Assembly (NCBI RefSeq): GCF_028389875.1
Contig: NC_084663.1
Location: 186,001-250,000 of the forward strand
From: Rhea pennata
Taxonomy: Eukaryota > Chordata > Aves > Rheiformes > Rheidae
DNA length: 64,000 nt
Reading direction: 5' to 3'
Part shown: positions 5,026 through 64,000 of the stretch, piece after piece
Numbering within the stretch: the stretch's first letter is position 1
Layout of the letters: the number at the start of each line of letters is the position of its first letter
Notes under the pieces: model-generated
Seen by the model: the letters and a program-made list of their open reading frames with translations, nothing else
Databases searched by the model: none
Told to the model about the DNA's origin: nothing
Position numbers and translations under genes: made by a program

Positions 5026-5937
5026 AGCCTCAGATCCTGAGTTTGTTTCTCATTTCCCTGTTTTTTTGGGGGGGTTATTTAGAGCTGGCCTTCACAGAGG
5101 AAAGTGATCTTCTCATGCACTCAGTACTCTGGTGAACAGCTGGGTATTTTCCCTTCTTGCAAGTGACTGTCTGGGCATGGCCTTCCTTGACCGGGTGCAC
5201 AGCACGGTCAAGGAGAGGGCAATAATATCTATATGGTTGCTGGTTACTGCATGTTCCTTAGAGGCTAAGCTTGCTGGGAGAGCTGAGCCACTCTCGGATC
5301 TGCAGGGAAGAGTACCCACCAAGATGCTTTAGTAGTATTTACTGGAGAAAACAAACACTAAATGTTTTTTTTTATAAAGCTTTGAGCTTGGGTCCTGTGC
5401 TTTTGTTATAGGGCCGTCCAGTTACTGCAAAGCACAGGTCTAACTGCTAGCCCTCCCCATTGCTTTATAGCTCATCTAGTGCTGCCTCTCTCTCTACCCA
5501 TTTGATCTCTGCTGCCCTGTTTCTCTGGGTTTGCCTTCCCATTCTGTTATGGAGCAGCCAAATCCAGGGAATTCTGGACTTGGGGTATTTCTCTTTTCAG
5601 GCCTGCTAGAGCTGAATTGGGTAGACTCTCATGCCCAGGTTTCTCCCATCCCAGCCTGATGGATATGGCTGCTGCTGTTCCAGTGTGTGGATCCAAAGGC
5701 TTAGTGTTTATTCCAGAGAGCCAAATACATACTCAAACATGCACACACATACACAACTCATGTGATTTGCAAAACAGATGAACACAAATGGTGGGTACTG
5801 TTAAAGGTACCACTCTTAAAACAAACAGCACTCATGAACATAGACCTGTCCTTTTCTTCTACAGCTGATCATAATTGATGTTCACTACTGAAGCATAAAC
5901 ATGCTTCCTTACTTCTTAGGTTTAATTGATATCATAG
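5026..5937 (+). other. RABL2 3' UTR and intergenic sequence
   Basis: Non-coding sequence following the RABL2 stop codon. A T-rich run and TATAAA lie at about 5366-5378, but no canonical AATAAA signal is convincing. A short CA-rich patch lies at 5733-5758. No open frame with family resemblance was seen. Confidence 0.5.
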
Positions 5938-6165
5938 ATATCATAGAATCAGTAAGGTTGGAAGGGACCTCCGGAGATCATCTAGTCCAACCCCCCTGCT
6001 CAGCAGGGTCACTTAGAGCATGGTAGACAGGGTTGCATCCAGGTGGGCCTTGAAGATCTCCAGAGAAGGACACTCCACAACCTCTCTGGGCAACCTGTTC
6101 CAGTGCTCTGTCACTCTCACAGTGAAGAAATTCCCCCTCACATGAGGGGGGATTAGACTCAAAAG
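5938..6165 (-). mobile_element. CR1 LINE, 3' end fragment
   Basis: It starts with the reverse complement of the CR1 3' tail (ATCATAGAATCAG) and continues with GGTTGGAAGGGACCTC and the CR1 blocks GAAGATCTCCAGAGAAGGA and TCTCTGGGCAACCTGTTCC. It is a severely 5'-truncated copy of about 230 bp, of the same subfamily as those at 34.1 and 63.8 kb. Confidence 0.93.
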
Positions 6166-7305
6166 CAGCTCACATCCATGGATCCCTTGAATATTAGCAG
6201 GGTATTAAGCTCATCTAATATCCATGCCCACATGCCAGGCTACTTAGTCTTTGGCTCAGAACTTGGGCCTTTCCGGATGTGGGTCTCACCTTGTTTGTGT
6301 GTTAGTCCAACTTGACATTTGCTTGTGAATTGCACATACACACAGGGATCCCACCAGTAGCCAGCCCTAGACACTGGGTGTTTCCAACTGCTGGCTCTCA
6401 GGCCAATGGGCGTCTAGGACCTGTGTTCCCTTCTCCCATTGCTAGCACTCAGGCCTCTCAACACATGTACAGGGAAGAGAGCAGTATTACACAGAAAATG
6501 GTTTGGAATAGCTTTTATAAAGGAGGTAACATGGACTGTGGTGATTAGCTGCAAGGCTCAGGTGAGCAGTCTGTGTAACTGGCCACTCTATTCCCCCGTA
6601 CTCTCCATTTGCCCGTGCTTATACTTCCCCCTCATCTACCTTGACCACTCCCTTTCTCTGCTCTAGTCTTCTAAATAAACAATCTACCTCTAGTTGCTTT
6701 TTCCCCAACGGCTCCCACTTTTGCTGCATTTATTGTATGACCCCATTTCCATGTTGCTTGTTGCTGTGTGCTCATCTGGAACAGGATCCAGTTGTAATAC
6801 ACGCACATGACTTGCACATGGAAGTGTATGCACAAGCTTGTTCTGCTGGATGTAATGCATGGACAAGGATGTGCTTGTTCTTAGATATGCATGTGCAACC
6901 ACACAAGTTCACTATGGCCTGGGGACCAGGGAATGAAAGAGTTAAGCTGTATCCAGGTATCAGTCTGTCACTAGGCTCAGCTCCCTGTCAGACTCAACAC
7001 TTCTTTCGTAAGTTGAATTCTGCTGTGAACCTCTCTAGTGTCATTCTATCTTGTAGGCAGTGGCCAGTGCTGAAGTGAGTACCCCATTCTTTGGCTGCAT
7101 TGCCACAAGTGGCATGAGAGTATCAGGCTGAGGAGCTGCAGGGATTACTGCTGGGTGGTGTGAGCTTGCCAGGATCGGGAAAATGTTTTGTACTGGCTTG
7201 GCAGCCTTTGTTAAACCCTGTTGATTCTGGAAAGTGCCTGAACTGGGGAAGTAAATGGGGGCTGATTATTGCAACTGATCACTGTGGAAACATGCCATGT
7301 GCCTG
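6166..7305. other. Intergenic, nothing recognised
   Basis: About 1.1 kb of unique-looking sequence between two repeats. Open frames are short, without splice context or family resemblance. Confidence 0.5.
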
Positions 7306-7757
7306 TCAGAGTCCAATACTCTCTGACCAGCTTCTTTTAGATATTCCACACGTGAAAGATGTAATGTTTAATATCGAACTTTACTTTGAGCATATTTGAT
7401 ATTACATGGGATTTTTGATTTAGCAGAGTGATACAGCAATCTACTGAAATCACAATACAAATGTAAGTTACACTTTGTAAAATACAGTAATTGCAATATA
7501 CAGTTCAATCAAAATACAAGTGTGATTCCCATTACAGGTCTCTAGAAGATGCTCACTGTCATGATGTTGGGCATCCCCAATCGCTGGAAAGGAATATGTG
7601 GGTTGAAACCAACTCAAAATTCTTTTGTTAGTTGTTCAGTTTTTATACTCTGTGTTGAGCTGAGCAACCTATATACTTCACCCCATACTGGTCTGGCTAA
7701 CTCAGGGAGATGTTCACACTATTTTGATGAACCAAGGGAGATGTGTTTTCACTAGTT

Positions 7758-8550
7758 GATCACAGAATCACAGAATGGTTGAGGCTGGAAGGGATCTCTG
7801 GAAATCATCTAGTCCACCCCCTCTGTTCCAGCAGGGTCATCTAGAGCACATTAGACAGGATTGTGTCCAGGAGGGTTTTGAATATCTCCACAGAAGGACA
7901 CTCCACAACCTCTCTGGGCAACCTGTTCCAGTGCTCTGTCCCTCTCACAGTGAAGAAGTTTTTCCTAATGTTCAGGTGGAACTTACTATGTTTCAGTTTG
8001 TGCCCATTGCCTCTTGTCCTGTCACTGCGCACTGCTGGAAAGAGACTGGCCCCATCTTCTTGACCTTCCCTTAAGATATTTGTAGACATTGACAAGATCC
8101 CCTCTCAATCTTCTCTCCTCCAGGCTAAATAAGGCCAGCTTTCACAGCCTTTCCTTGTAGGGAGATGCTCCACTCCCCTAATCATCTTTGTAGCCCTGTG
8201 CTGGACTCACTGCAGTAATGCCATGTCTCTCTTGTACTGGGGAGTCAAGAATTGGACAGAGTATTCCAGATGTGGACTCACCAGGATGGAGTAAAGGGGG
8301 AGGATCACCTCCCTTGACCTGCTGGCAACAGTTTTCCTAATACACCCCAGGAGACCATTGGCCACAGGGGCATATTGCTGGTACACGGTTAACTTGTTGT
8401 CTACCAGCACTCCCAGGTCCCCCTCTGCAGAGCTGCTTTCCAGCTTCCAGCCTGTACTAGTGCATGGGGTGCAGGACCCTGCACTTGGCTTTGGTGAACT
8501 TCATGAGGTTCCTCTCTGCCCCACTGTCCAGACTCAACTGGGATGTAGTC
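7758..8550 (-). mobile_element. CR1 LINE, ~0.8 kb 3' portion
   Basis: Longest CR1 copy in the window. It begins with the inverted tail (GATCACAGAATCACAGAATGG) and shows the usual CR1 order in reverse: CTCCACAACCTCTCTGGGCA, then CTCTTGTCCTGTCACT, then ATCATCTTTGTAGCCCTG, then the part encoding the C-terminal end of the reverse-transcriptase ORF. TTGAT lies at both edges (about 7756 and 8552) and may be a target-site duplication. It is more diverged than the 34.1-kb copy. Confidence 0.93.
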
Positions 8551-8583
8551 AATTGATCCATTCATTTGACATAGTTGTTTTTG

Positions 8584-8600
8584 GAAAAAAAAAAAAAAAA
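8584..8600 (+). repeat. Poly-A run
   Basis: Homopolymer A of about 16 bases just 3' of the CR1 edge; it could be part of the interrupted older repeat. Confidence 0.8.
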
Positions 8601-9572
8601 TCCACCTTCCAGTCCCCTTTGTGTTGAAATAAAATCAGTGCAAGAGCTGTGGTAGTCACACCCTATATAATTTCTGAGCTTCATGGGCACCTCACTCTTG
8701 CCCATCTCCTCTAACTCTTCTTCCTCTCTAGGGCTTTAGTGGTCAGTCACAGTGGCACCTTAAGCTCTTGCCCACCTGTGCTGGGCCCCAGTGACCTAGG
8801 TGTTGTTAGGGCATTAAGTTCAGACAGTCAGGGCTGCAGCAAATGGCAGCCAGGGTGGCGTAGCAAGGCGACAGGTTCAGTGCAAACCGGATGGACAGCT
8901 GCGGAGAGAATCATGTGGGCTTGAGAGGGTGAACAACATGGAAATTGCCTCCTTCTCTGCCCAGTACCCAACACTGCATGCACTTGGCCACATGTACCAA
9001 GGGCCCCAGGTGCTCTGCTACCCCAGGCTGTGTTGAACCAGAATTGTTCTATTGCTTTTCAATAGCGAATACATTAAACCTGCCAGATGGTGTTGGTAAG
9101 TTTAACATGGCCAGGGAAGACTGTGCTGCATGTGCATTTAACTGTTTTGTATAGGAGAGCTGACATCACCTGGGTCACAGCTTGTCTACCACAGCCATAA
9201 CCAGTATTAGCAGAGGCGGTGCTGGGAGCTGGTCAGTGCTGCCTGCCCCAGGGCTGCACGCTGTCATCCCATGAGCAGTGTTTGGTGGGGGCTCTCTGAG
9301 CATCCAGTCCCAGTGCCCACAGCTGTTGGCTCCGCTCCTGCTCACAAGCCCTCTGCACTGGCCCCACTGATGGTGCAGAGTGTGCACCACAGCGCACCAC
9401 AGCACACCACAGAGCACTGTGATGGCCCAGCACTCCGGAACAAGCAGCTCTGTGACATCGGTCTCAGCGCCACGGCACCGGGCCAACGCGGACACCGCAG
9501 GCAGCGTGCTCGGCTGCTGCACTGGTGTGAGAAGGCTGGGGCACCAGCAGCTGCCTCGTGCCGCTGGGGAAG

Positions 9573-11746
9573 ATGAAGTTGTTCCCCCTCCTCTTGGTGC
9601 TGGCCATGTGCTGGCCTGCATATGGCACATATGACAGCTGTGGGTAAGTAGCCTGAGGCCATGGGAGAGCATGTTTGGGGGAGCCTTGCAGGGAGCCTAC
9701 TTGCCCCCTGGCTGCATGGGAGGCTCCGCAACCCAGGGCAGGAGGCTCAGCTCCTCTCCAGCATCCAGGCTCCCAGCACAGCTCACTGCAGGGCTACAGT
9801 TGCACACCACACAGTGTGCCTTGGCCCCACTGTCCACATGCTGCCACATGGGGTGGGGAGCAGGAGGGACAACGGACAACCTTCAGCCTGAGCAGAGTGG
9901 GGAGCAGTCAAGCATGGTACTAATGAGTTTCTGATTACAGAGGGACCTGTGGGGTCCGGCCCATGGCCTCTTACTACAGCATGATGCGCGTCGTTGGTGG
10001 TACGGATGCTCAGCCAGGGTCCTGGCCCTGGATTGTCAGCATCCAGGTCCCCTGGAGAAGAGGCACCGGGCACATATGTGGAGGGACTCTCATCAGCCCA
10101 CAGTGGGTCCTCACAGCAGCTCACTGCTTCATAAATGCCACGTAAGGATGCACAGGGAATGGGGATGTCCCCACAACACAGGCAGGAGCCTTGGCTTTGC
10201 TCTCTAACCCCTCTCTCCATCTCCAGCTATGTCGAGATGTGGCGTATAGTGGTTGGTGCCTCCAGTTTGCTTCAGATGGGCCCTGAGGTAGAAGTACGCA
10301 ATATTAAACGGCTAGTGACGCATGAATATTATAATAATCGCTCACAGAGAAACGACATTGCCTTGCTGGAATTGGACCAACCAGTGCAGTGCAGCTACTA
10401 TATACAGCTTGCCTGTGTGCCCGATGGCTCGCTGCGAGTGTCAGAGCTGTCACCTTGCTACATCAGCGGTTGGGGTGCCATGGAGGAAGGATGTAAGTTC
10501 CCAACAAGTGCTGGTGTTCCCTGAGTGCAGGCTCGACATACTGTCGAGACAGGGGCTGGGCTACCCAGACAGCAGAGGCAAAACCCAGGGCCAACCCAAA
10601 GGGACATATGCTTGTAGAGAGTTAGCCTTGACCCATTACCCAAAGCAAGAGATGGGAAGCATCAGTAAATATGCCTTGCAAGATCCAAAACCAGGTCCTT
10701 TGAAAGGCGGTGACCCAGACAAGGAGGGTGAAATGGCAACATGCTGCCAGGTACCAATTCCTTTATATGCCCACAGCTAAGATACGACCTGCCATCCTGC
10801 AGGAGGCCCTTGTCCACCTCATTGACAACCACATCTGCAACAGCAGCCAATGGTATGCAGGGGCCGTCAGGAACACCAACCTGTGTGCTGGCTATCAGCA
10901 GGGTGGCATCGACACTTGCCAGGTAGGAAGGTGCAACAAGCCAGCCCACAGCAGCGGGTGCAGCCCTGTCATAACTTCTCAATGTATGCTGCCTATGCTC
11001 TGCCTGGCCAGCTACTCATCCATCTCTGGGTCCCACCAGTGACAGCGCTCACCTCCCCTTCCCCTCTGCAGGTCCTAGACGAGAGGTCCCCTTGCCCCAG
11101 GTGCCTTGGGCTCTCCCCAGAGAGACCATCCAGTGCTCTTGGTGCTCCACAGGTCCAGATCCTCTCCCTGGAACAACCCTAATCCACACCCCCAGGATCA
11201 CTGTGCAGACATGAGAGAGAACCCTACCTTACAGGCCCACGGGCCCTTCCCCAACGAGCTTCTGTAGGCTCCAGCAGCTGAGACGTGCCTCTGCGTGCAG
11301 TGCAGACAGCTCTGGGAAGTGCTGTTAGAGAGAAGCAGCCCTAGTTGTAGTGCTCACACTGGCCACCCAGCAACACCTTAAACCTCTCTCCTGCACTGCA
11401 GGGTGACAGCGGTGGCCCCCTTGTATGCAAAGATAGAACTGCCAACTACTACTGGCTTGTTGGTGTCACCAGCTGGGGAACAGGCTGCGGGAGAGCACAT
11501 CAGCCTGGAATCTACACTTCCACCCAGCACTATTATGACTGGATCCTGTTTCATATGAGCACACCACAAGAAGCATCATGGAGATGGGGTCATTTATTCT
11601 CGGCCTCAGGCCCATTCCAGAAGCCAAGGCCAATACCTACACAATCAGCAAGGCCCATGCGCTGTCCATATCCACGCCACAAGCTCATGGAATTCTTTAG
11701 TGGGGTGCAGCAGCTGCTGCATGTCCTAAAGGGAAGAAAGACTTGA
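9573..11746 (+). CDS. ACR: Acrosin copy 1 (sperm trypsin-like serine protease)
   Basis: Five exons: 9573-9643, 9941-10141, 10227-10492, 10777-10922 and 11402-11746; 342 residues, uninterrupted. A signal peptide ([18 protein letters not shown]) is followed by a short light chain with two cysteines and the activation site R40|VVGG. The trypsin fold shows His85 (TAAHC), Asp134 (RNDIALLEL) and Ser231 (GDSGGP). Asp225 in DTCQGDSGG predicts cleavage after Arg/Lys. The tail is short and lacks the long proline-rich extension of mammalian acrosin, but [16 protein letters not shown] aligns with the mammalian C-terminal FAKRLQQLIEVLKGK. Known role: acrosomal protease released at fertilisation. It is oriented towards ARSA, and its near-identical partner is 18261-20692 on the other strand. 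An AATAAA follows at 11910. Confidence 0.95.
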
Positions 11747-11909
11747 GCAGCAAGACAAACAGGACACAGGGCAGGCTGCATATATGGTTACCATTTGCTT
11801 CTGGGGCAATGCCCACTGATCCAGAGGCAACCCCAGGGCCTAGGCCTGCTCTGCACAGCTCACCCTCTCTCGACTGCCTACAAACTCTGAAAGTTTACAC
11901 AATTCCAGA

Positions 11910-11915
11910 AATAAA
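11910..11915 (+). terminator. Polyadenylation signal of ACR copy 1
   Basis: AATAAA about 165 bp past the stop codon. The same hexamer is conserved at the mirror position of copy 2. Confidence 0.75.
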
Positions 11916-12499
11916 GTTGCCTATTCTCACAGCTGACCATTCCTCAGTCCAGTTCTGTCTTGGGGGCATAGCAAGGATTTCCATAGACGGCACCTGAAAA
12001 ACAAGGCTGCATGCAGCCAGTTGGCCACAATTACAAAAAGTCACCTGATGGCTGATAATTTAAGGGATTACTGAAGTCCTTTGGGGCAGTGGAATCTGGC
12101 AAGCGCAGCACTACCTAAAAAACCACATCAGTAATAACACAGTAGTACAAGATGAACTAATAAGTGCATCTGAAATACCTGATACAGATAGTAACGTAGC
12201 AAAAGCGGGAGCCGAGTGCACAGATACAGTGGAAGATGGGCTGCAAGGCAGGGTCGGGGGAAGTACGTACTGGTTAGTGTAAAAGGAAAGCCTGGAACAG
12301 AGCAATTCCCACAGACTGAGCATAAAACGTGCACATCTCCATAAGATGAGGATGACAAGTTTAGCCAGCCTCACAGCTGCTTCCTCTTAGGGATAAAGAC
12401 TGCTGCCCCTGCCCGCAGGTGGGTTAACCCTGGTCCATACCAGGGTGCTGTACTTGTGCACCCTCAGGGCGGCCTGGCTCAGTCTCATTTCAGATACGT

Positions 12500-13037
12500 T
12501 AAACAGGTGCAGCTCTGCACCGCACCAGACCCTGACCCTCCCTCCGAGCTCTGCGGGGCTCTGCGGCGCGAGGTGCCTGGGCCGGCAAGGGGACAGGCCA
12601 GGCCGCCCCATGCTTCCCGGCAGCGAGGGGGCCACCGCCTTGTGCCTCACACTTGCCTTCCCCCGCCTGCCTGAGGACCATGCATAGGGGCTCGTGGGGA
12701 CCCCCACTTCCAAGAGCCCCTCCGTACGAGCGCCCAGAGCCGAGTGCGGGCCCGTGAGCAGCCCCGCCGCGGAAGAACCCCCGGCGCGGCTCCTTTAAGG
12801 CGCAGCCACGCGGCGGACTACAGCTTCCGTCACACCCCGCGGCTGCAGGATCACGTGGCCGCCCGCGCCGGTCACGTGGCGGCCAGCAGGTGCCGCGGCA
12901 GCTGGCTCGGTTCTGCCGCTCTCTGTGCAGCCTCGCTGGGCCGGCCGGCGCTGCGGCTGCGGCGGCAGGTTCACCCCTCCCCCCGCAGATAAGCGCGGTC
13001 TCAGCGGGCGGTGGCGTCTCCTGCGGGCGACAGGGCC
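12500..13037 (+). promoter_or_regulatory. ARSA CpG-island promoter
   Basis: GC- and CpG-rich sequence running into exon 1, with ACTACAGCTTCCG (ETS-type core, partial ZNF143-like context) near 12817, twin E-boxes at 12850-12880 and no TATA box. The transcription start is probably between ~12880 and 13030; this is inferred from position only. Confidence 0.75.
12850..12880. promoter_or_regulatory. Two CLEAR-like E-boxes upstream of ARSA
   Basis: CACGTG occurs at 12852-12857 and 12873-12878, in the contexts ATCACGTGGC and GTCACGTGGC. These are close to GTCACGTGAC, the CLEAR element bound by TFEB/TFE3 in lysosomal gene promoters. Spacing is exactly 21 bp, about two helical turns, placing both sites on one DNA face. 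Regulation by TFEB is inferred from motif and gene function. Confidence 0.65.
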
Positions 13038-16000
13038 ATGCAGCCGCCGCGACGGGGCCTGCTCTGGGCTCTGGGGCTGCTGGTCCTGCATGAGGCAGCC
13101 AGCGGCCCCCCCAACTTCGTGCTGCTCCTGGCCGACGACCTGGGCTTTGGGGACCTGGGGAGCTATGGGCACCCCTCCTCTGCCACGCCCAACCTGGACC
13201 TCATGGCCTCCCGTGGACTGCGGTTCACTGACTTCTACAGCAGCTCTGCGGTGTGCAGCCCCTCGCGGTACGTCTTGGCTGCTGCCAGCCCTGGGCTGCT
13301 GCCATCTGCCACAGGGCCCAATGGTGCAGCCAGCAGAGGCACCAAGGTGCTGCTTGACATCCTGAGGCAGAGCCGCAGCACTCTGGGGAGTGGGTGGCCA
13401 AGCAGCCTACTGCCATCAAGGAGGCCCAGAGATTCAGCTGCTGCCTAAGGGGACTGTGGATCCTGGCAGGCATGGGAGATGGCAGTGGCAGCTGTGAGAC
13501 CAGGCAGCTGAGCTAGCGGGTCCTTAGACGTGAGGACCATCAGTGGAGAAGAGATGTGGGCTGTTGAGTGGCATGGGGTACCCCCTGCACTGTGTCTGGG
13601 GGGTGATACCTGTCTCTTGTCTTACTCCTCTCATCTATAGGGCAGCCCTGCTGACAGGCCGGTTCCAGGTGCGCTCTGGGGTTTACCCTGGTGTGTTTAA
13701 CCCTGACTCCCGGGGAGGCCTGCCACTGTCTGAGATCACCATTGCGGAGGTGCTGAAGGCTGAGGGCTATGCCACAGCCATGGTTGGCAAGTGGCATCTG
13801 GGGCTGGGAATTAATGGCTCCTTCTTGCCCACCAACCAGGGCTTTGACCACTTCTTGGGGGTGCCCTACTCACATGACCAGGTAAGTGCTGGATCAAGTG
13901 TGTGAGGCCTGAAGTGCCCTGAATACAAGGCTCATATCTGAGAGTGCATGGACTAGGTTAGTGCTTTTGCTGACAGGTGGGAGGTTGCAGGACAGGGAGA
14001 TGGATGGTAGTGGGGAAAGCCTGCCTCTGAGGTGTTGCTGTGATAGAGCCATGTCTCAGGCTGTGGGTGACAGTGTGTGGGGATGTCAGCCCTTTGTCAA
14101 GGGAGAGCAGTCATGTGCTATGGATTGCATGAACGAGGGTTAGCTTTTGGTGTACAAAGAAACATCTGAATTGCTGTCAGGAGAAAATTGTATTGTGGCA
14201 GCATGGTCCTTTGGCAGTTTTGGGGTGAGCCTAGTCTATGGGCTTCTGGAAGGGGCTACCCAAGGGGTGCCTATGGACCTGGTGGTAGGCTGCTGTGAGA
14301 CTCTTTGCACTCCTCCTCACTGTTCTGCAATGCAGATAAAAGACAAAATGTTATTTTCTCTCTCCAGGGCCCCTGCCAGAATCTCACCTGCTTTCCGCCT
14401 GACATCAAGTGTTTTGGAACTTGTGACCAGGGCTTAGTGCCAGTGCCACTCCTCTGGAACCAGAGCATTGTGCAGCAGCCAATTTCCTTCCCTGATCTAG
14501 TGCCACTCTACAACAAATTCTCCCGGGACTTCATCACTGACTGTGCCCAGCGAGGCCTCCCCTTCCTGCTCTACTATGCCTCCCACGTAGGAGAGGGGGA
14601 AGGTTGCTCTGGGTAGAAGGGTGGGGGAGCGTCTGTCCTATGGGGAGAGCAGGGAAGCACTTTGACTCTTGCAGTCCCAGATGCATACTGAGAAGTCAGT
14701 ACCTGGAGGAAAGAAGGGGGAAATCCCTGCCGCAGCTGATTTGGAGTTGATGTTCCTGTGCTGAAGCTTTCTGACAGCACCATCCTGGTAATGTTCTTAG
14801 GCTGCTTCCATCTGGAGTTTTGCCTGCTCCTTGGGCTAGCAGTCCATCTGAGGCAAGGTCCCACCCTCTATGAAACTCCACATCCTCTGTTGGCACTGAG
14901 TTCCTTTGTGCTGTTTCTGAGAGGAGTTTCTGAAGCCTGGTGGCAAACCCTCTGTCATCTCATGGGTCTTGTCACATATCTTCATGTCCTAGCTAAGGTG
15001 TTCGCTGTCTGTAGGTGAGTATGGCAGCCAGGTGCAGCTTTGGCAGTTTGCACAGCAGTCTTCTCTCCCCTTTTCTCTAGCATACACACTACCCCCAGTT
15101 TGCAAGCCAGGAGTACACAGGGCAGTCACAGCGGGGGCCCTTTGGTGATGCTCTCTTGGAATTTGATGGCTCAGTGGGACAGTTGCTGCAGGCCTTGCAG
15201 GACAATGGTCTTACGGACAGGACCCTGGTGTTTTTCACCTCTGACAATGGGTGAGTGGGCTCAAGGGCGGACATCCTTCTTGGTAAGATTCTACTGCCTT
15301 GGTATGGCAGAGCTGGAACAAAGCACTGGGTGACTGGGACACAAGTGACATTATGTGGCATAACCTACATCTCTACCTGTGAGATCCTAGTGACCTGGAG
15401 TGAGGGAGGGAGTGAATGCTGTTCTGTATAGGACCTGTTGCATGAACCCTTCCTTGCCCCTCCCAATTCCCTTCCTGAGTGGGTGACCTTGGTCTCTAGT
15501 GCCTTGGTTGCTCATCTCGCACACCTCAGCCTCATCACACCATGCCACCTTCCTTGCAAGGTTGAGGAGGGTGGCAGGGTCACTCATTGGTGCCTTGTGT
15601 GTTGTGCCATGGCCCTGCTGACAGCATTAGGGAAGGGGTAGCATTGACCTGTGAGACTAACAGGAGATTGTTCCTCTGTCTTCCCTCACAGCCCTTCCAC
15701 TTTGCGGATGGCACGTGGGGGCAGCTCTGGCCTTCTGAGGTGTGGGAAGGGAACAACATATGAAGGTGGCATGCGGGAACCAGCAGTAGCTTATTGGCCA
15801 GGCCACATCATTCCAGGTGAGACTTGGTGCCGCTTGTCTTTTGCATGCTGATGCCAGCTGGAGTACAGGGTACTGTTAAAGCCCAACTTTTCTGGGGCAG
15901 GTAGAGGAGATGAGAGAAGTGACGATGACAGGGATGGGAATGGGATCAGGTGCTTGAACCTTTCCTTGTGCCTTGCTGTGGTGATAGGAGTGACCCATGA

Positions 16001-17052
16001 GCTGGCAAGCACCCTGGACATCCTGCCAACACTGACTGCTCTGGCTGGAGTGGCTCTTCCCAGCATTGCCCTGGACGGCTATGACTTGAGTCCTGTGCTG
16101 TTTGGATCGGGGAAGGTGAGTTCTACAGGCAAGTTCTGGCTAGCGCAGCACATAGAGGCTGAGTGTGGGGCAGGGGCTGGGGCAGGGGCTGTCTGCCTGG
16201 TGAGTAGCCCCAGCTGAGGGTCTGGGGAGAGAGCCATGAGCTGAGAGGTTTTCTGGCCCAGGCCATGCCATGGAGTTCCTGGGCTTCTCCAATTTGCTCT
16301 GAGGCGTGCTCTAACAACTGCAGCATGTTGTCAAGCCAAACATCCAGGGCTGCAGTGCCTGGACATAATCCCAATTCCTTCAAGTTGGGAGCAAGTAGGA
16401 TGCTGTTGCTCATTGCTACCCCTGCCCCATCCTGGCTATAATGTCAGGGTTCCTATATGACTCCCTAGAGCCTCCATGTGGTCCTGTCCTCCAGCCTCAC
16501 AGCCATATAGGTGACCTTGGCTCTGTTGCTTCCCACAGAGTCCCCGTCAGATGATGTTCTATTATCCACCAACCCCTGATCAACTGCACGGCCCCTTTGC
16601 TGTCAGGCTTGGGAAGTACAAGGCTCATTACTTCACACAAGGTCAGCGCTCCTCTCCTCTGCATGGGTGACTTGATGAAGTCCAATCTGGTTTTGCTGTC
16701 CAAATCTTAGTGAGATGAAACTGAGCTGCTCTTGGGGGCTTCTTTTGCAGGTTCCTTTCACAGTGATACCACCCCTGACCAGGCCTGCCATGGGCTGACC
16801 CCACTTACTCCCCACGTGCCCCCGCTACTCTTTGATCTGGAGTCGGACCCTGCAGAGCACTATGACTTGGTGCAGAGTGGTGCAGGGCCGGAAGTTCTGC
16901 AAGTGCTGAAGGAGATCAAACTGCAAAAGGTGCTTTTTGAACAGCGTATGGAGTTTGGAGAAAGCCAGATGAGGAAAGGCAGAGATCCTGCCCTGCAGCC
17001 CTGCTGCAACCCAGACTGCACCCCCAAGCCATCCTGCTGCCATTGCTCCTAG
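13038..17052 (+). CDS. ARSA: Arylsulfatase A (lysosomal cerebroside-sulfatase)
   Basis: Eight exons: 13038-13267, 13641-13881, 14368-14586, 15081-15250, 15692-15816, 15988-16115, 16539-16641 and 16751-17052. They sum to 505 codons plus stop, the usual length of vertebrate ARSA. A signal peptide (about residues 1-22) precedes the metal-binding LADDLG (Asp33, Asp34). CSPSR at 73-77 is the sulfatase signature whose Cys73 becomes formylglycine; the arginine codon is split by intron 1. GKWHLG supplies Lys127 and His129, NLTC at 162 is a conserved glycosylation site, TSDNG gives the Asp/Asn metal ligands, and [14 protein letters not shown] carries the second active-site lysine. The C-terminus is cysteine-rich ([15 protein letters not shown]). 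ATG 13038 is chosen because it begins the signal peptide. Known role: desulfation of sulfatide in lysosomes. It sits in the spacer between the two acrosin arms, on the same strand as RABL2. Confidence 0.97.
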
Positions 17053-17519
17053 CCTTCTGCTGCCCCAGTTGCTTCACACTCCCACCCTATCCCAGACCTA
17101 TCTACCAGCGCCCTGTACTAACTGAGTTCAGCCATAGAGCTGCCTGGAGCTTTGGCTCAGTGACACCCCTGACAATGGGGTACTGGTCTGGCAAGCTGTG
17201 AGTTGGGGAGGGTATCAACCCTCCTAGAGGGAGGTCATTAGACACACTGCACTCCACACTGCACTGCCAGGCTGAGGTCTCTTTACAGAAATACTGACTT
17301 GTTCAGGGAGGGACCATAATACAGCCTCATCTCCAGACTCAGCACAGCTTCATTCAAACCATGATAAAGATGAAACAAAGGGTATGCCATGGTATCCTCA
17401 GATCCCAACTTGCTGGAGGTGTGCTATGTCACCCTGAACGGGAACAGACATGGGAGCTACAGTAAAACTATCTGACAAGGGCCATGAGCACCCAGTTTTG
17501 CTATTTCAGATGCTGCTAC
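17053..17519 (+). other. ARSA 3' UTR and spacer
   Basis: Non-coding sequence after the ARSA stop codon. No canonical AATAAA is obvious before the right arm begins; the faint match of GCATCTGAAATA (left ~12168) with its inverse near 17505 marks the decayed inner edge of the palindrome. Confidence 0.5.
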
Positions 17520-18091
17520 CTGCTTAATCTCAGGTTGACATGTTATTACTGATGTGACTTCCTAGATACCACTGCCCTTGCCAGATTCCACTCCCTATAC
17601 ATCCCTTCAGTTATCTATGAAGCTTGGCCAACTCTCACATGACTCCCCCTAATCAGTTGTGAAATCCAGCTGTGCCTTGTAATGCTGTCTGTAACTCATC
17701 AGCTTCTCACTGTTACTTGTTATGTTCAGCAGTTTCTCATACTGAAACTCATGTTCAGGAGTTTCTCTTGGTCTACTCAGTTAGCAAATCCTTTAGCCAG
17801 GGCCTAGTCATCTGCTTGCCCACCTTAACGCTTTCACCAAAAGTCATCTTCATGCCACATCATTTTTCCCTAGCCTCAGTATGCCAGCCTTCTCCATCCC
17901 ATTGCTGCCTGCGTGGCTCTGAGCAACTTCCTCTCTGACTGGGCAGAATTTCAGCCCATCGGGTGACTTTTTGCAATTGTGGCCAACTGGCTGCATGCAA
18001 CCTCGTTTTTCAGGTGCTGTCTATGAAAATCCTTGCTATGCCCCCAAGACAGAACTGGACTGAGGAATGGTCAGCTGTGAGAATAGGCAAC

Positions 18092-18097
18092 TTTATT
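18092..18097 (-). terminator. Polyadenylation signal of ACR copy 2
   Basis: TTTATT on the + strand (AATAAA on the - strand), the mirror of 11910-11915. Confidence 0.75.
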
Positions 18098-18260
18098 TCT
18101 GGAATTGTGTAAACTTTCAGAGTTTGTAGGCAGTCGAGAGAGGGTGAGCTGTGCAGAGCAGGCCTAGGCCCTGGGGTTGCCTCTGGATCAGTGGGCATTG
18201 CCCCAGAAGCAAATGGTAACCATATATGCAGCCTGCCCTGTGTCCTGTTTGTCTTGCTGC

Positions 18261-20692
18261 TTAAACCTCGCTTTCCTTTATAACCTGAAGCAGCTCCTGC
18301 AGCAGAGCAAAGAAGTCCACCAACTTGTTGCGTGGAAATGGGCAGGAGCCAGGCCTGCTTGCATCTGCAGGTATTGGCCTTGGCTTCTGGAATGGGCCTG
18401 AGGCAGACACTGGTGGTGCACTTGTCTGCCCTGCTGGCCGTAGTCCCATATGGACCAGGATCCAGTCGCGATAGTGCTGGGTGGAAGTGTAGATTCCAGG
18501 CTGATGTGCTCTCCCGCAGCCTGTTCCCCAGCTGGTGACACCAACAAGCCAGTAGTAGTCGGCAGTTCTATCTTTGCATACAAGGGGGCCACCGCTGTCA
18601 CCCTGCAGTGCAGGAGAGAGGTTTAAGGTGTTGCTGGGTGGCCAGTGTGAGCACTACAACTAGGGCTGCTTCTCTCTAACAGCACTTCCCAGAGCTGTCT
18701 GCACTGCACGCAGAGGCACGTCTCAGCTGCTGGAGCCTACAGAAGCTCGTTGGGGAAGGGCCCGTGGGCCTGTAAGGTAGGGTTCTCTCTCATGTCTGCA
18801 CAGTGATCCTGGGGGTGTGGATTAGGGTTGTTCCAGGGAGAGGATCTGGACCTGTGGAGCACCAAGAGCACTGGATGGTCTCTCTGGGGAGAGCCCAAGG
18901 CACCTGGGGCAAGGGGACCTCTCGTCTAGGACCTGCAGAGGGGAAGGGGAGGTGAGCGCTGTCACTGGTGGGACCCAGAGATGGATGAGTAGCTGGCCAG
19001 GCAGAGCATAGGCAGCATACATTGAGAAGTTATGACAGGGCTGCACCCGCTGCTGTGGGCTGGCTTGTTGCACCTTCCTACCTGGCAAGTGTCGATGCCA
19101 CCCTGCTGATAGCCAGCACACAGGTTGGTGTTCCTGACGGCCCCTGCATACCATTGGCTGCTGTTGCAGATGTGGTTGTCAATGAGGTGGACAAGGGCCT
19201 CCTGCAGGATGGCAGGTCGTATCTTAGCTGTGGGCATATAAAGGAATTGGTACCTGGCAGCATGTTGCCATTTCACCCTCCTTGTCTGGGTCACCGCCTT
19301 TCAAAGGACCTGGTTTTGGATCTTGCAAGGCATATTTACTGATGCTTCCCATCTCTTGCTTTGGGTAATGGGTCAAGGCTAACTCTCTACAAGCATATGT
19401 CCCTTTGGGTTGGCCCTGGGTTTTGCCTCTGCTGTCTGGGTAGCCCAGCCCCTGTCTCGACAGTATGTCGAGCCTGCACTCAGGGAACACCAGCACTTGT
19501 TGGGAACTTACATCCTTCCTCCATGGCACCCCAACCGCTGATGTAGCAAGGTGACAGCTCTGACACTCGCAGCGAGCCATCGGGCACACAGGCAAGCTGT
19601 ATATAGTAGCTGCACTGCACTGGTTGGTCCAATTCCAGCAAGGCAATGTCGTTTCTCTGTGAGCGATTATTATAGTGTTCATGCGTCACTAGCCTCTTAA
19701 TATTGCGCACTTGGACCTCAGGGCCCATCTGAAGCAAACTGGAGGCACCAACCACTATACGCCACATCTCGACATAGCTGGAAGGGAGATGGAGAGAGGG
19801 GTTAGAGAGAGCAGAGCCATCCACTGTAGGAAAATGGCAGTTCCAACTGTTCCGGGTTTACAGTAGGGAGAGGGATGCAGTTATAGCCTTGCATGGAGGC
19901 ATAATGTCCTTGTATGCCTTGGGCACTGGGAACGTTGAGAATAGGCTACTAGGAAGCAGTGGCACAAGCCCAGCCTTCTCAAGGGAAACCCTCCTGCTGG
20001 AGTATTTTAAATGCCCAGTCGCTATGGGTGCTGTGAAGCAGATGGCTGGGAGGAGGCTGATGTGCAACAGCCAGGGCACCTGCCTGTGTTGTGGGGACAT
20101 CCCCATTCCCTGTGCATCCTTACGTGGCATTTATGAAGCAGTGAGCTGCTGTGAGGACCCACTGTGGGCTGATGAGAGTCCCTCCACATATGTGCCCGGT
20201 GCCTCTTCTCCAGGGGACCTGGATGCTGACAATCCAGGGCCAGGACCCTGGCTGAGCATCCGTACCACCAACGACGCGCATTGTGTTGTGTTGAGAGGCC
20301 ATGGGCCGAACTCCACAGGTCCCTCTGTAATCAGAAACTCATTAGTACCATGCTTGACTGCTCCCCACTCTGCTCAGGCTGAAGGTTGTCCGTTGTCCCT
20401 CCTGCTCCCCACCCCATGTGGCAGCATGTGGACAGTGGGGCCAAGGCACACTGTGTGGTGTGCAACTGTAGCCCTGCAGTGAGCTGTGCTGGGAGCCTGG
20501 GTGCTGGAGAGGAGCTGAGCCTCCTGCCCTGGGTTGCGGAGCCTCCCATGCAGCCAGGGGGCAAGTAGGCTCCCTGCAAGGCTCCCCCAAACATGCTCTC
20601 CCATGGCCTCAGGCTACTTACCCACAGCTGTTCTGTGCATTGTGTGCAGGCCAGCACGTGGCCAGCACCAAGAGGAGGGGGAACAACTTCAT
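18261..20692 (-). CDS. ACR: Acrosin copy 2 (inverted paralogue)
   Basis: Five exons on the minus strand: 20622-20692, 20124-20324, 19512-19777, 19082-19227 and 18261-18602; 341 residues, intact. His/Asp/Ser triad, the specificity Asp and R|VVGG activation site are all kept. Compared with copy 1 the signal peptide and catalytic core are almost identical. The mature N-terminus reads [10 protein letters not shown] (copy 1 [10 protein letters not shown]), the residues before the activation site read SQHNTMR (copy 1 SYYSMMR), and exon 3 has E113Q and Y125H. The last ~70 residues differ strongly and end [14 protein letters not shown]. Intron 2 is 346 bp against 85 bp. If the window is compared with inverted human 22q13.33, this copy has the orientation expected for ACR, so copy 1 may be the derived one. 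Both look functional. Confidence 0.94.
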
Positions 20693-21269
20693 CTTCCCCA
20701 GCGGCATGAGGCAACTGCTGGTGCCCCAGTCTTCTCACACCAGTGCAGCAGCCGAGCACGCTGCCTGCGGTGTCCGCGTTGGCCCGGTGCCGTGGCGCTG
20801 AGACCGATGTCACAGAGCTGCTTGTTCCGGAGTGCTGGGCCATCACAGTGCTCTGTGGTGTGCTGTGGTGCGCTGTGGTGCACACTCTGCACCATCAGTG
20901 GGGCCAGTGCAGAGGGCTTGTGAGCAGGAGCGGAGCCAACAGCTGTGGGCACTGGGACTGGATGCCCAGAGAGCCCCCACCAAACACTGCTCATGGGATG
21001 AGAACATGCAGCCCTGGGGCAGACAGCACTGCCCGACTCCCAGCACCCCCTCTTCTAACAACCAGCAGGAGAAAACTGTGACATTGCAACCCACTTGGGA
21101 GGTTGGCTGCCACTGTGTGCTTTGCTGGGCCCCTGGTCTTTTCCAAAACATGCACCCCACCGAACACAGCTACTACTGACTATGTGCACCCTTGGTAGGT
21201 GTTGAAGATCCAAACAGCCAACAAGCAGTGATGTGGAAGAAGGATGAAGAGTGCACATTCTTCATATGC

Positions 21270-34124: not shown

Positions 34125-34670
34125 ATAATAGAATCATAGAATCAGTAAGGTTGGAAGGGACCTCTGGAGATCATCTAGGCCAACCTCCCTGCTCAGCAGG
34201 GTCACCTAGAGCATGGTAGACAGGGTTGCATCCAGGCGGGCCTTGAAGATCTCCAGAGAAGGACACTCCACAACCTCTCTGGGCAACCTGTTCCAGTGCT
34301 CCATCACTCTCACAGGGAAGAAATTCTCCCTCACGGTCAGGCGGAACTTCCTCTGCTTCAGTTTCTGCCCACTGCCTCTTGTCCTGTCACATGGGACAAC
34401 TGAACAGAGCGTAGCCCCATCCCCTTGGCACCCTCCCTTCAGGTACTTACACACATTGATGCGATCCCCCATCAGTCTTCTCTTCCCCAGGCTGAAGAGG
34501 CCCAGCTCTTGCAGCCGTTCTGTATAGGGCGGATGCTCCAGCCCTCTGATCATCTTTGTAGCCCTACTCTACAGTAGCTCCATGTCTCTCTTTTCCTGGG
34601 GAGCCCAGAACTGGACACAGTACTCGAGATGAGGCCTCACCAGGGCTGAGTTTAGTGGAGAGGAAGAAAG
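34125..34670 (-). mobile_element. CR1 LINE, ~0.55 kb 3' portion, young subfamily
   Basis: Starts ATAGAATCATAGAATCAGTA and runs through CTCCAGAGAAGGACACTCC, TGTCCTGTCACATGGGACAA, CTGATCATCTTTGTAGCCCT and GAGGCCTCACCAGGGC. The first 190 bp are almost the same as the 5.9-kb and 63.8-kb copies. Confidence 0.95.
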
Positions 34671-41689: not shown

Positions 41690-42740
41690 ACAGCAAGGCT
41701 GGGCCAAGGCATGGTACAGGCATTGTGCCCCATGTGGGCATGGACCAGGCCATGGTGCAGGTCCTGTGTCCCACAGTGGGGTTGAGGCCGGCCCTGGTGC
41801 GGGCGCCGTGGCCCATGGCAGGGATGGGCCAGGCTGTGGTGTGGGTGCCATGCCCCACATGGGGATGGGCCGGGCTACGGTGCGGGTGCCCTGCCCCGTG
41901 GCAGGGATGGGGCCTGGCCACAGTGCGGGTGCCGTGCCTCACAGCAGGGATGGGCCGGCCGTGGTGTGGGCGCCGTGCCCCAGAGCAGGGATGGGCCAGT
42001 CGCAGTGTGGGCACTGTGCCCCACATGGGGGTGGGCCTGGCTGTGGTGTGGGTGCCTTGCCCCATGGCGGGGATGGAGCCCAGCCATGGTGTCGGCACTG
42101 TGCCCCAAGGTGTGGATGGAGGCTGGCTATGGTGCAGGCACCATGCGCCACAGCAGGGATGGGGCCTGGCCGCGTTGTGGGTGCCGTGCCCCACATGCGG
42201 ATGGGCCCAGCCGCAGTATGGGCACAGCGCCACACATGGGGATGGGCCGGCTGTGGTGTGGGCACCGTGCCCGACATGGGGATGGGCTGGCCGTGGTGTG
42301 GGCACTGTGCCCCACATGGAGATGGGCCTGGCTGTGGTGTGGGCTCCGTACCCCACATGGGGGTGGGCCTGGCTGTGGTGTGGGCTCTGTGCCCCACATG
42401 GGGATGGGTCAGCCACGGTGTGGGCTCCGTGCCCCACATGCAGATGGACTGGTCATGGTGTGGGCTCCGTGCCCCAGACGGGGATGGGCCGGTCACGGTG
42501 TGGGCTCCGTGCCCCACATGGGGATGGACCGGTTGCAGTGTGGGCTCCATGCCCCACATGGGGATGGACCGGTTGTGGTGTGGGCTCCATGCCCCACACG
42601 GGGATGGGCCGGTCGCGGTTTGGGCTCCGTGCCCCACATGGGGATGGACCGGTCGCGGTGTGGGCTCCGTGCCCCACACGGGGATGGGCCAGTCGCGGTG
42701 TGGTTGCCCTGCCCCACGTGGGGACGGGCCGTCCCTCGCC
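41690..42740. repeat. 40-bp minisatellite, about 26 copies
   Basis: Exact 40-bp period shown by GGGATGGGCC/GGGATGGACC at 42481, 42521 and 42561. The unit is GCCCCACATGGGGATGGGCC then GGTCGCGGTGTGGGCTCCGT. Copies are most uniform at 42300-42720 and degrade leftwards. The unit lacks stop codons in most frames on both strands. Since 40 is not a multiple of three, each frame cycles through all three readings, giving overlapping frames of 279-643 codons that should not be annotated as genes. Confidence 0.95.
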
Positions 42741-42851
42741 GGCTGCATGGCCCGGCCCGGGCATGGAGCCGGCCGGCCTGTGCCCACCCCAGCAGCAGGC
42801 TTTGAACTTTCTCTCCATCCGCTTCCCTTTCTTGCTCACACATACTCTCTT

Positions 42852-42865
42852 GTTGCCATGACAAC
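42852..42865. promoter_or_regulatory. RFX X-box
   Basis: GTTGCCATGACAAC is a nearly perfect inverted-repeat X-box (consensus GTTGCCATGGCAAC), ~40 bp before the CpG-rich block. RFX factors drive ciliary and some neuronal genes. Binding is inferred. Confidence 0.6.
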
Positions 42866-43099
42866 ACCTTAAACTAACACTCGGTTCCCCAGGCTGCGAG
42901 GGGGGCTGAGTTCGCAGGAGAAATTCATCTTTCTAGTGCGGATCCTCTCCAGAATCCCCCTCCGCCCCCGCCCCGGTGCTACTCTTGCAGCTCGCCCGCT
43001 TGCTCGCTGGTGCTGGCTGCCTCCGGCGCCCGCCGGTGCTGCTATGGTTACTCGGGCCCAGGCGCCCATCCCGCCGCCGCGAGCCGCCGCTGCTCTGAG
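42866..43099 (+). promoter_or_regulatory. CpG-rich promoter with candidate first exon of an unidentified gene
   Basis: A block dense in CpG ends in a splice donor at 43099/43100 (CTGAGG|GTAAGAGCC). An ATG at 43044 would encode MVTRAQAPIPPPRAAAALR before the donor, but no family is recognised and the exon may be 5' UTR. The block is squeezed between the 40-bp array on the left and the 28-bp array on the right. By mammalian order SHANK3 is a possible owner; the sequence does not demonstrate this. Confidence 0.5.
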
Positions 43100-43224
43100 G
43101 GTAAGAGCCGCGCCGCGCTCCAGCAGTGCTCGCACCCAGCCTGGCCGGCTGCGGGGTGCTGCGGCCTCTGGGGCCAACCACGTGGGGCAGAGCGGGCTCT
43201 GGGATGGGTGCTGGGCAGTGCGAG

Positions 43225-43890
43225 GGCCCAGCCGGGTGCTGGGAGAGTGGGCATTGGAATGGGTGCTGAGGAGAGCAAGCACTGGGATGGGCGCTGGGGA
43301 GAGCAAGCACTGGGGAGTGCAAGCACTGGGATGGGTGCTGTGAAGAGCAAGCACTGGGATGAGTGCTGGGAAGAGCAAGCACTGGGATGGGCACTGGGGA
43401 TAGTAAGTACTGGGACGGGAGTTGGGGAGTGCAAGCATTGGGACGGGCGCTGGGGAGAGCAAGCATCAGGATGGGCGCTGAGGAGAGCAAGCACTGCGAT
43501 GGGCACTGGGGAGAGCAAGCACTGGGATGGACACTGGGGAGAGCAAGCACTGCGATGGGCACTGGGGAGAGCAAGCACTGGAATGGGCACTGGAGAGAGC
43601 AAGCAGCAGGACAGGGGCTGGGGAGAGCAAGCACTGGGACAAACGTTGGGGAGAGCTAGCAGGAGGATGCGAGCTGGGGAGTGCAAGCATTAGGACAGGT
43701 GCTGGGGAGTGCAAGAATTGGGATGGGCACTGGGGAGGGCAAGCATGGGGATGTGGATTGAGGAGTGTGATCGCCTGACTTTGCATTGGGGGAGCAGGTG
43801 CTGGGATGGGCGCTAGGGAGAGCAGGCGTTGGGATGGGTGTTGTGGGGGAGCAGGTGCTGGGATGGGCATTGGGGAGAGCAGGCACCTGC
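43225..43890. repeat. 28-bp minisatellite, about 23 copies
   Basis: Unit GAGCAAGCACTGGGATGGGC plus ACTGGGGA, period 28 bp, most regular at 43450-43620. It starts ~125 bp inside the putative first intron. Frames in it reading SKHWDGHWGEQALGW are repeat artefacts. Confidence 0.93.
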
Positions 43891-63821: not shown

Positions 63822-64000
63822 GATCACAGAATCATAGAATCAGTAAGGTTGGAAGGGACCTCTGCAGATCATCTAGTCCAACCTCCCTGCTCAGCAGGGT
63901 CACCTGGAGCGTATTAGACAGGGTTGCATCCAGGCTGGCCTTGAAGATCTCCAGAGAAGGACACTCCACAACCTCTCTGGGCAACCTGTTCCAGTACTCC
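63822..64000 (-). mobile_element. CR1 LINE, 3' end, cut by window edge
   Basis: ATCACAGAATCATAGAATCA followed by GTAAGGTTGGAAGGGACCTC and the standard CR1 3' order up to CAACCTGTTCCAGTACTCC at the last base. Continues beyond the window. Confidence 0.95.

Follow-up and report, generated by a model that had tools for sequence, protein, structure and literature searches.

In the primate red (LW) and green (MW) opsin genes, introns are homogenised by gene conversion and a peak of divergence in the coding sequence keeps the functional differences between the two genes (PMC3924837). Duplicated RNase genes in which coding divergence exceeds non-coding divergence have been read as the outcome of conversion combined with selection (PMC3924837). 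In the human X palindrome that carries MAGE-A3 and MAGE-A6, near-identical inverted arms contain one diverged coding region, with a ratio of nonsynonymous to synonymous divergence (dN/dS) of 0.9, and this region was ascribed to selection against homogenisation (PMC3112145). For the sperm protease acrosin, an acrosin and an acrosin-like gene lie within 13 kb on chicken chromosome 1 and share 68% protein identity; both products were found in semen, were reported to be active and were inhibited by SPINK2 (PMC6767445). Counts of acrosin genes range from one in chicken and seven non-clustered genes in zebra finch (PMC2865498) to two in chicken (PMC6767445). Here we describe an inverted pair of acrosin genes of Rhea pennata, located in a stretch of 64,000 nucleotides (the window; positions 186,001 to 250,000 of contig NC_084663.1, assembly GCF_028389875.1). 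Comparison of the two copies revealed that near-identical segments alternate with segments of long-standing divergence, that the duplication is old, and that the divergence which has been retained is biased towards coding sequence.

The two genes flank the arylsulfatase A gene ARSA, copy A on the + strand and copy B on the - strand. Copy A (9573-11746, +) consists of five exons (9573-9643, 9941-10141, 10227-10492, 10777-10922 and 11402-11746) encoding 342 amino acids, and copy B (18261-20692, -) of five exons (20692-20622, 20324-20124, 19777-19512, 19227-19082 and 18602-18261) encoding 341 amino acids. Both reading frames are intact, and positions 9573 and 20692, between which the original prediction was placed, are the start codons of copies A and B. 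Alignment of the inverted duplication delimits a left arm at ~9207-12060 (+) and a right arm at ~17947-21058 (-). When copy A, the sole acrosin query, was compared with solved structures, beta-acrosin heavy chains were the top two of 560 matched sequences (E 2.4e-74 and 1.9e-72). These nearest entries, PDB 1fiw and 1fiz, are presumably ram and boar beta-acrosin. By eye, both copies carry the hallmarks of acrosin, that is, a light chain extending to an Arg-Val activation site (R40-V41, placed by homology) followed by TAAHC, NDIAL and GDSGG, which we take to be the trypsin motifs.

Divergence between the copies is distributed very unevenly along the arms. Introns 1, 3 and 4 together differ at 1 of 1060 sites and the coding sequence at 90 of 1026. 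By segment, differences were counted at 10/71 sites in exon 1, 8/201 in exon 2, 7/266 in exon 3, 0/146 in exon 4 and 65/342 in exon 5 (plus a 3-base gap), versus 1/297 in intron 1, 0/284 in intron 3 and 0/479 in intron 4; intron 2 differs at 4/85 sites and by two indels of 256 bp and 5 bp. The 5' flank (9287-9572) differs at 4 of 286 sites, and on the 3' side the 6 differences among the 305 sites from the stop codon to 12051 all lie beyond 11980 (6/71 in 11981-12051). The longest identical stretch, 1114 bp (10330-11443, +), covers the rest of exon 3, intron 3, exon 4, intron 4 and the start of exon 5, and when the differences were placed uniformly at random 20000 times, no run as long as this arose. 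Over 9207-12051, a two-state model raised the log likelihood from -478.3 under a single rate to -338.3 (a gain of 140), with a homogenised state in which 3 of 2400 sites differ and a patch state with ~25% divergence. The three differences outside the patches include the single change in the core, N243D. The original prediction had described near-identical introns 1, 3 and 4, 5' flank and 3' untranslated region (UTR) together with heavy differences in the light chain, in a patch of exon 3 and in the C-terminal tail; each of these observations was borne out, and divergence along the arm alignment takes the form of a two-state mosaic.

The model identified ten diverged segments: five are coding, two are small interior non-coding segments (5' UTR and intron 2) and three are at the arm edges. 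All interior patches are given here in copy A coordinates on the + strand. Patch 1 (9606-9635, 10 differences) covers the end of the signal peptide and the start of the light chain, and patch 2 (9951-9985, 8 differences) lies in the light chain, where the last changed residue is 38, two before R40-V41. With the signal peptide assumed to be residues 1-18, 7 of the 22 light chain residues differ. Patch 3 in exon 3 (10288-10331) contains five synonymous and two nonsynonymous differences (E113Q and Y125H). Patch 4a (11532-11604, 28 differences) covers the end of the protease domain and the first part of the C-terminal tail, and patch 4b (11637-11747, 36 differences) the remaining tail to the stop codon; the last difference, at 11745, falls within the stop codon and the next 235 bases are identical. 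The computed charge of the tail at pH 7 is +7.75 in copy A and +1.5 in copy B. When 62 random substitutions were introduced into the copy A tail, it remained open in 1592 of 20000 trials. Within the otherwise diverged tail, 36 bases are identical (11603-11638), which could reflect either constraint on a motif or a short tract of conversion. Of the two non-coding patches, one is directly upstream of the ATG (9535-9559, three differences at 9535-9558) and the other (10185-10201, four differences) borders the larger indel of intron 2. Copy B carries 256 bp there (19811-20066, -) that copy A lacks, and mismatches flank this stretch; no clear second copy of it was seen within the window.

The retained differences are concentrated in coding sequence beyond chance. 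In the interior of the arms (9287-11980), 90 of the 99 differences are coding, though coding sequence makes up 38% of the span. The claim that divergence is confined to coding sequence does not hold entirely: exceptions occur at the intron 2 edges, in the 5' UTR and at both arm edges. Circular shifts of the exon mask reached 90/99 in 14 of 2691 positions (11 of 2691 for a reversed mask), and random placement of the seven interior segments gave p 0.002 for the number of coding bases (p 0.003 with the tail counted as one segment). This coding bias suggests selection against conversion.

The patches are old sequence, as their synonymous sites have diverged too. The proportions of differing synonymous (pS) and nonsynonymous (pN) sites are 0.294 and 0.320 in the tail (residues 273-342), 0.245 and 0.197 in residues 12-40, and 0.484 and 0.058 in the exon 3 patch (residues 112-126), while residues 41-111 and 127-272 together hold no synonymous and one nonsynonymous difference. 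About 24 of 77 synonymous sites differ in the patches, compared with 0 of ~156 in codons 1-11, 41-111 and 127-272 (p 1.8e-13) and with the single difference in introns 1, 3 and 4 (p 4.7e-29); these p values use rounded counts and treat neighbouring sites as independent, which they are not. Beyond the left arm, a segment of the flank (12066-12177, +) is 69% identical to its counterpart beyond the right arm (17502-17615, -, aligned as 17615-17502; E 1.4e-12), a score that none of 500 shuffles reached, and this counterpart is its only strong second match within the window. The 31% divergence of this match indicates that the duplication formerly extended further and that this part has not been homogenised; it is similar to the synonymous divergence in the patches.

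Further indication of age came from a relic of a third acrosin, 63 bp long (6737-6799, -), which resembles the tail in exon 5 of copy A (54/63 identical) and was also found by genome search. Copy A and the relic differ at 9 of 63 sites, whereas copies A and B, like copy B and the relic, differ at 23 of 60. As copy A groups with the relic in this stretch, in spite of the near identity of A and B in the introns, the split between the A and B tails is older than that between A and the relic, unless sequence was exchanged between A and the relic, in which case the difference between A and B would nevertheless be old. When the exons of copy A were compared with 6700-9150, matches for exons 1 to 4 of the relic were within the range of shuffled sequences (8 to 56 of 100 as high). 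Combined, the synonymous divergence of the patches, the diverged flank and the relic grouping show that the duplication is older than the identity of the introns suggests, and they give good support to the gene conversion of the arms that had been proposed.

We propose that an old inverted duplication left ARSA with an acrosin gene on each side. The copies then diverged at neutral and coding sites alike, as the outer flank and the patches show. Subsequent conversion between the arms would have rewritten most of each gene, introns included, while the old divergence survived in short stretches of the light chain, exon 3 and the C-terminal tail, most likely because conversions erasing these differences were selected against. 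To this reading as a whole, an old inverted duplication homogenised by conversion except in patches kept by selection against conversion, we assign a probability of about 0.62. Both the conversion between the arms, deduced from the mosaic, and the selective removal of conversions that erase the differing ends are processes we infer. The outcome would be two acrosins with a near-identical catalytic core and different ends, possibly with different partners. More tentatively, long-term selection might keep a shared core, maintained by conversion, together with two sets of ends (light chain and tail), providing sperm with two versions of one protease that differ in binding towards the egg coat or its inhibitors. 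According to a review, both termini of proacrosin may be involved in binding to sugars of the egg coat (PMC12209203). Such binding would agree with where the patches lie, without being evidence for this pair.

Several observations weigh against this reading. The coding bias is weaker over the wider span 9207-12051, where 90 of 114 differences are coding and 62 of 2842 shifts (39 with the mask reversed) reach it; non-coding sequence accounts for two of the seven interior patches, and random placement gave p 0.063 when mostly coding segments were counted. The coding bias is best read as selection preserving the difference, as originally suggested, but does not prove it. In the tail, 51 of 159 nonsynonymous and 14 of 48 synonymous sites differ (p 0.86), so that dN does not exceed dS. 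Most differences in the exon 3 patch are synonymous, and this patch may reflect hitchhiking around its two changed residues, or be a plain leftover. The further suggestion that selection drives the difference accordingly receives no support from these counts. The arm edges (9 differences in 9207-9265, and 6/71 in 11981-12051) have diverged less than the outer flank has, and 'old' is therefore not a single value throughout. As for the relic, the stretch is short, and over its first 27 bp copy B is similar to it as well (score reached by 2 of 300 shuffles, versus 0 of 300 for copy A). Lastly, the comparison is of one genome, and the chicken pair is at most a candidate for orthology with this one.

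Some of these points would be expected if conversion had acted without selection, the patches being chance leftovers where heterology, such as the intron 2 indel or the diverged tail, stopped conversion tracts. The intron 2 patch does sit at the 256-bp indel, and the existence of a 5' UTR patch, the near equality of dN and dS in the tail and the segment count all favour this explanation. However, more of the differences would then be expected in introns than was found in the interior, where the observed coding fraction was matched by 14 of 2691 rotations, and the tail patch ends within the stop codon. We therefore consider chance leftovers unlikely, though still to be taken seriously. Import is a less probable scenario: after full homogenisation, short conversions from a distant paralogue, for example the source of the relic at 6737-6799, would have put the coding patches into one copy. 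The likeness of the relic to the copy A tail points to such a donor, but several separate imports would be required, and the relic is recognisable in exon 5 alone, so that the scenario can be tested with it for the tail only. Genome searches, in which only the best candidates were scored, returned four matches for arm A, namely itself, copy B in two pieces and the relic, and two for the copy B tail, namely copies B and A; at the DNA level, no third donor copy was seen elsewhere in the genome for either query. We regard import as improbable.

The near identity of the introns could also be taken as the sign of a recent inverted duplication, with very fast positive selection acting on the protein ends. 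This was rejected because synonymous sites in the patches have diverged as well, and the 31% divergence of the outer flank and the grouping of the relic with copy A in the tail likewise make it very improbable. Equally improbable is an assembly artefact in which a collapsed repeat was used twice and made the arms falsely identical. The 1114-bp exact match might be taken for its trace, yet collapse presupposes near identity and is thus, by this reasoning, unlikely to turn 25% divergence into none; moreover, among the best candidates scored, the search of the assembly found only these two arms.

Between the arms, the spacer contains ARSA (13038-17052, +; approximate limits). Two of the four spacer open reading frames (ORFs) submitted to Pfam match the sulfatase family, and the closest PDB structure is arylsulfatase A; the limits are the ATG and TAG read from the sequence. 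The pair sits ~0.2 Mb from the end of a 217-Mb contig (216.9 Mb) in an assembly of 1.27 Gb. GC content is 0.51-0.60 in the introns and 0.48-0.55 in the flanks and spacer, values that are no test of biased conversion. Elsewhere in the window, ten long ORFs had no Pfam match at E 0.001, and an Rfam scan gave no match at gathering scores. Long tandem-repeat arrays with units of ~28, 40 and 41 bp occupy 41827-43811, and a dispersed repeat, presumably CR1-like, is present in four related copies (5932-6141, 7760-7969, 34125-34334 and 63823-64000). Across the genome, at least 155 trypsin-domain matches were obtained with 150 of 257 candidates scored, and in all 28 loci examined (L001-L028) copy A was matched, over 30 residues or more, at no better than 65% identity. 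One cluster of trypsin-domain exons (L009-L014) was seen on another contig (C57, ~261799-315752), where the best match to copy A over such a length was 49% identical.

The mosaic may record, as a natural footprint, where two paralogues of a fertilisation protease have to stay different and where they can be alike, and the patches mark out specific segments in which binding to the egg coat, to inhibitors or to partners may reside. In addition, an acrosin gene tree based on entire sequences can combine two histories, with possible consequences for acrosin copy counts and for reports of positive selection.

The locus can be compared with described systems on several points. Compared with the rhea copies, the chicken acrosin and acrosin-like genes, at 68% protein identity, are apparently less homogenised, which is compatible with an old pair that underwent less homogenisation there. 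The colobine RNase genes, which we take to be RNASE1, share with the acrosin pair a coding divergence above the non-coding one and belong to another gene family. With the primate opsins the pair shares homogenised introns and a retained coding difference. The opsin genes, however, are ~24 kb apart and, presumably, in tandem, unlike the inverted acrosins, their peak surrounds two residues of exon 5, and species comparison and function are known for them. No description of conversion between acrosins was found in the open-licence PMC literature. Selection against conversion or homogenisation has been described in the opsins and in MAGE-A3/A6, so that the acrosin pair would be a known phenomenon in a new gene. 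MAGE-A3/A6 also has near-identical inverted arms with a diverged coding region; it differs in that its divergence is ~2% and is ascribed to the human lineage, whereas the acrosin pair carries several patches at ~25% in a sperm protease.

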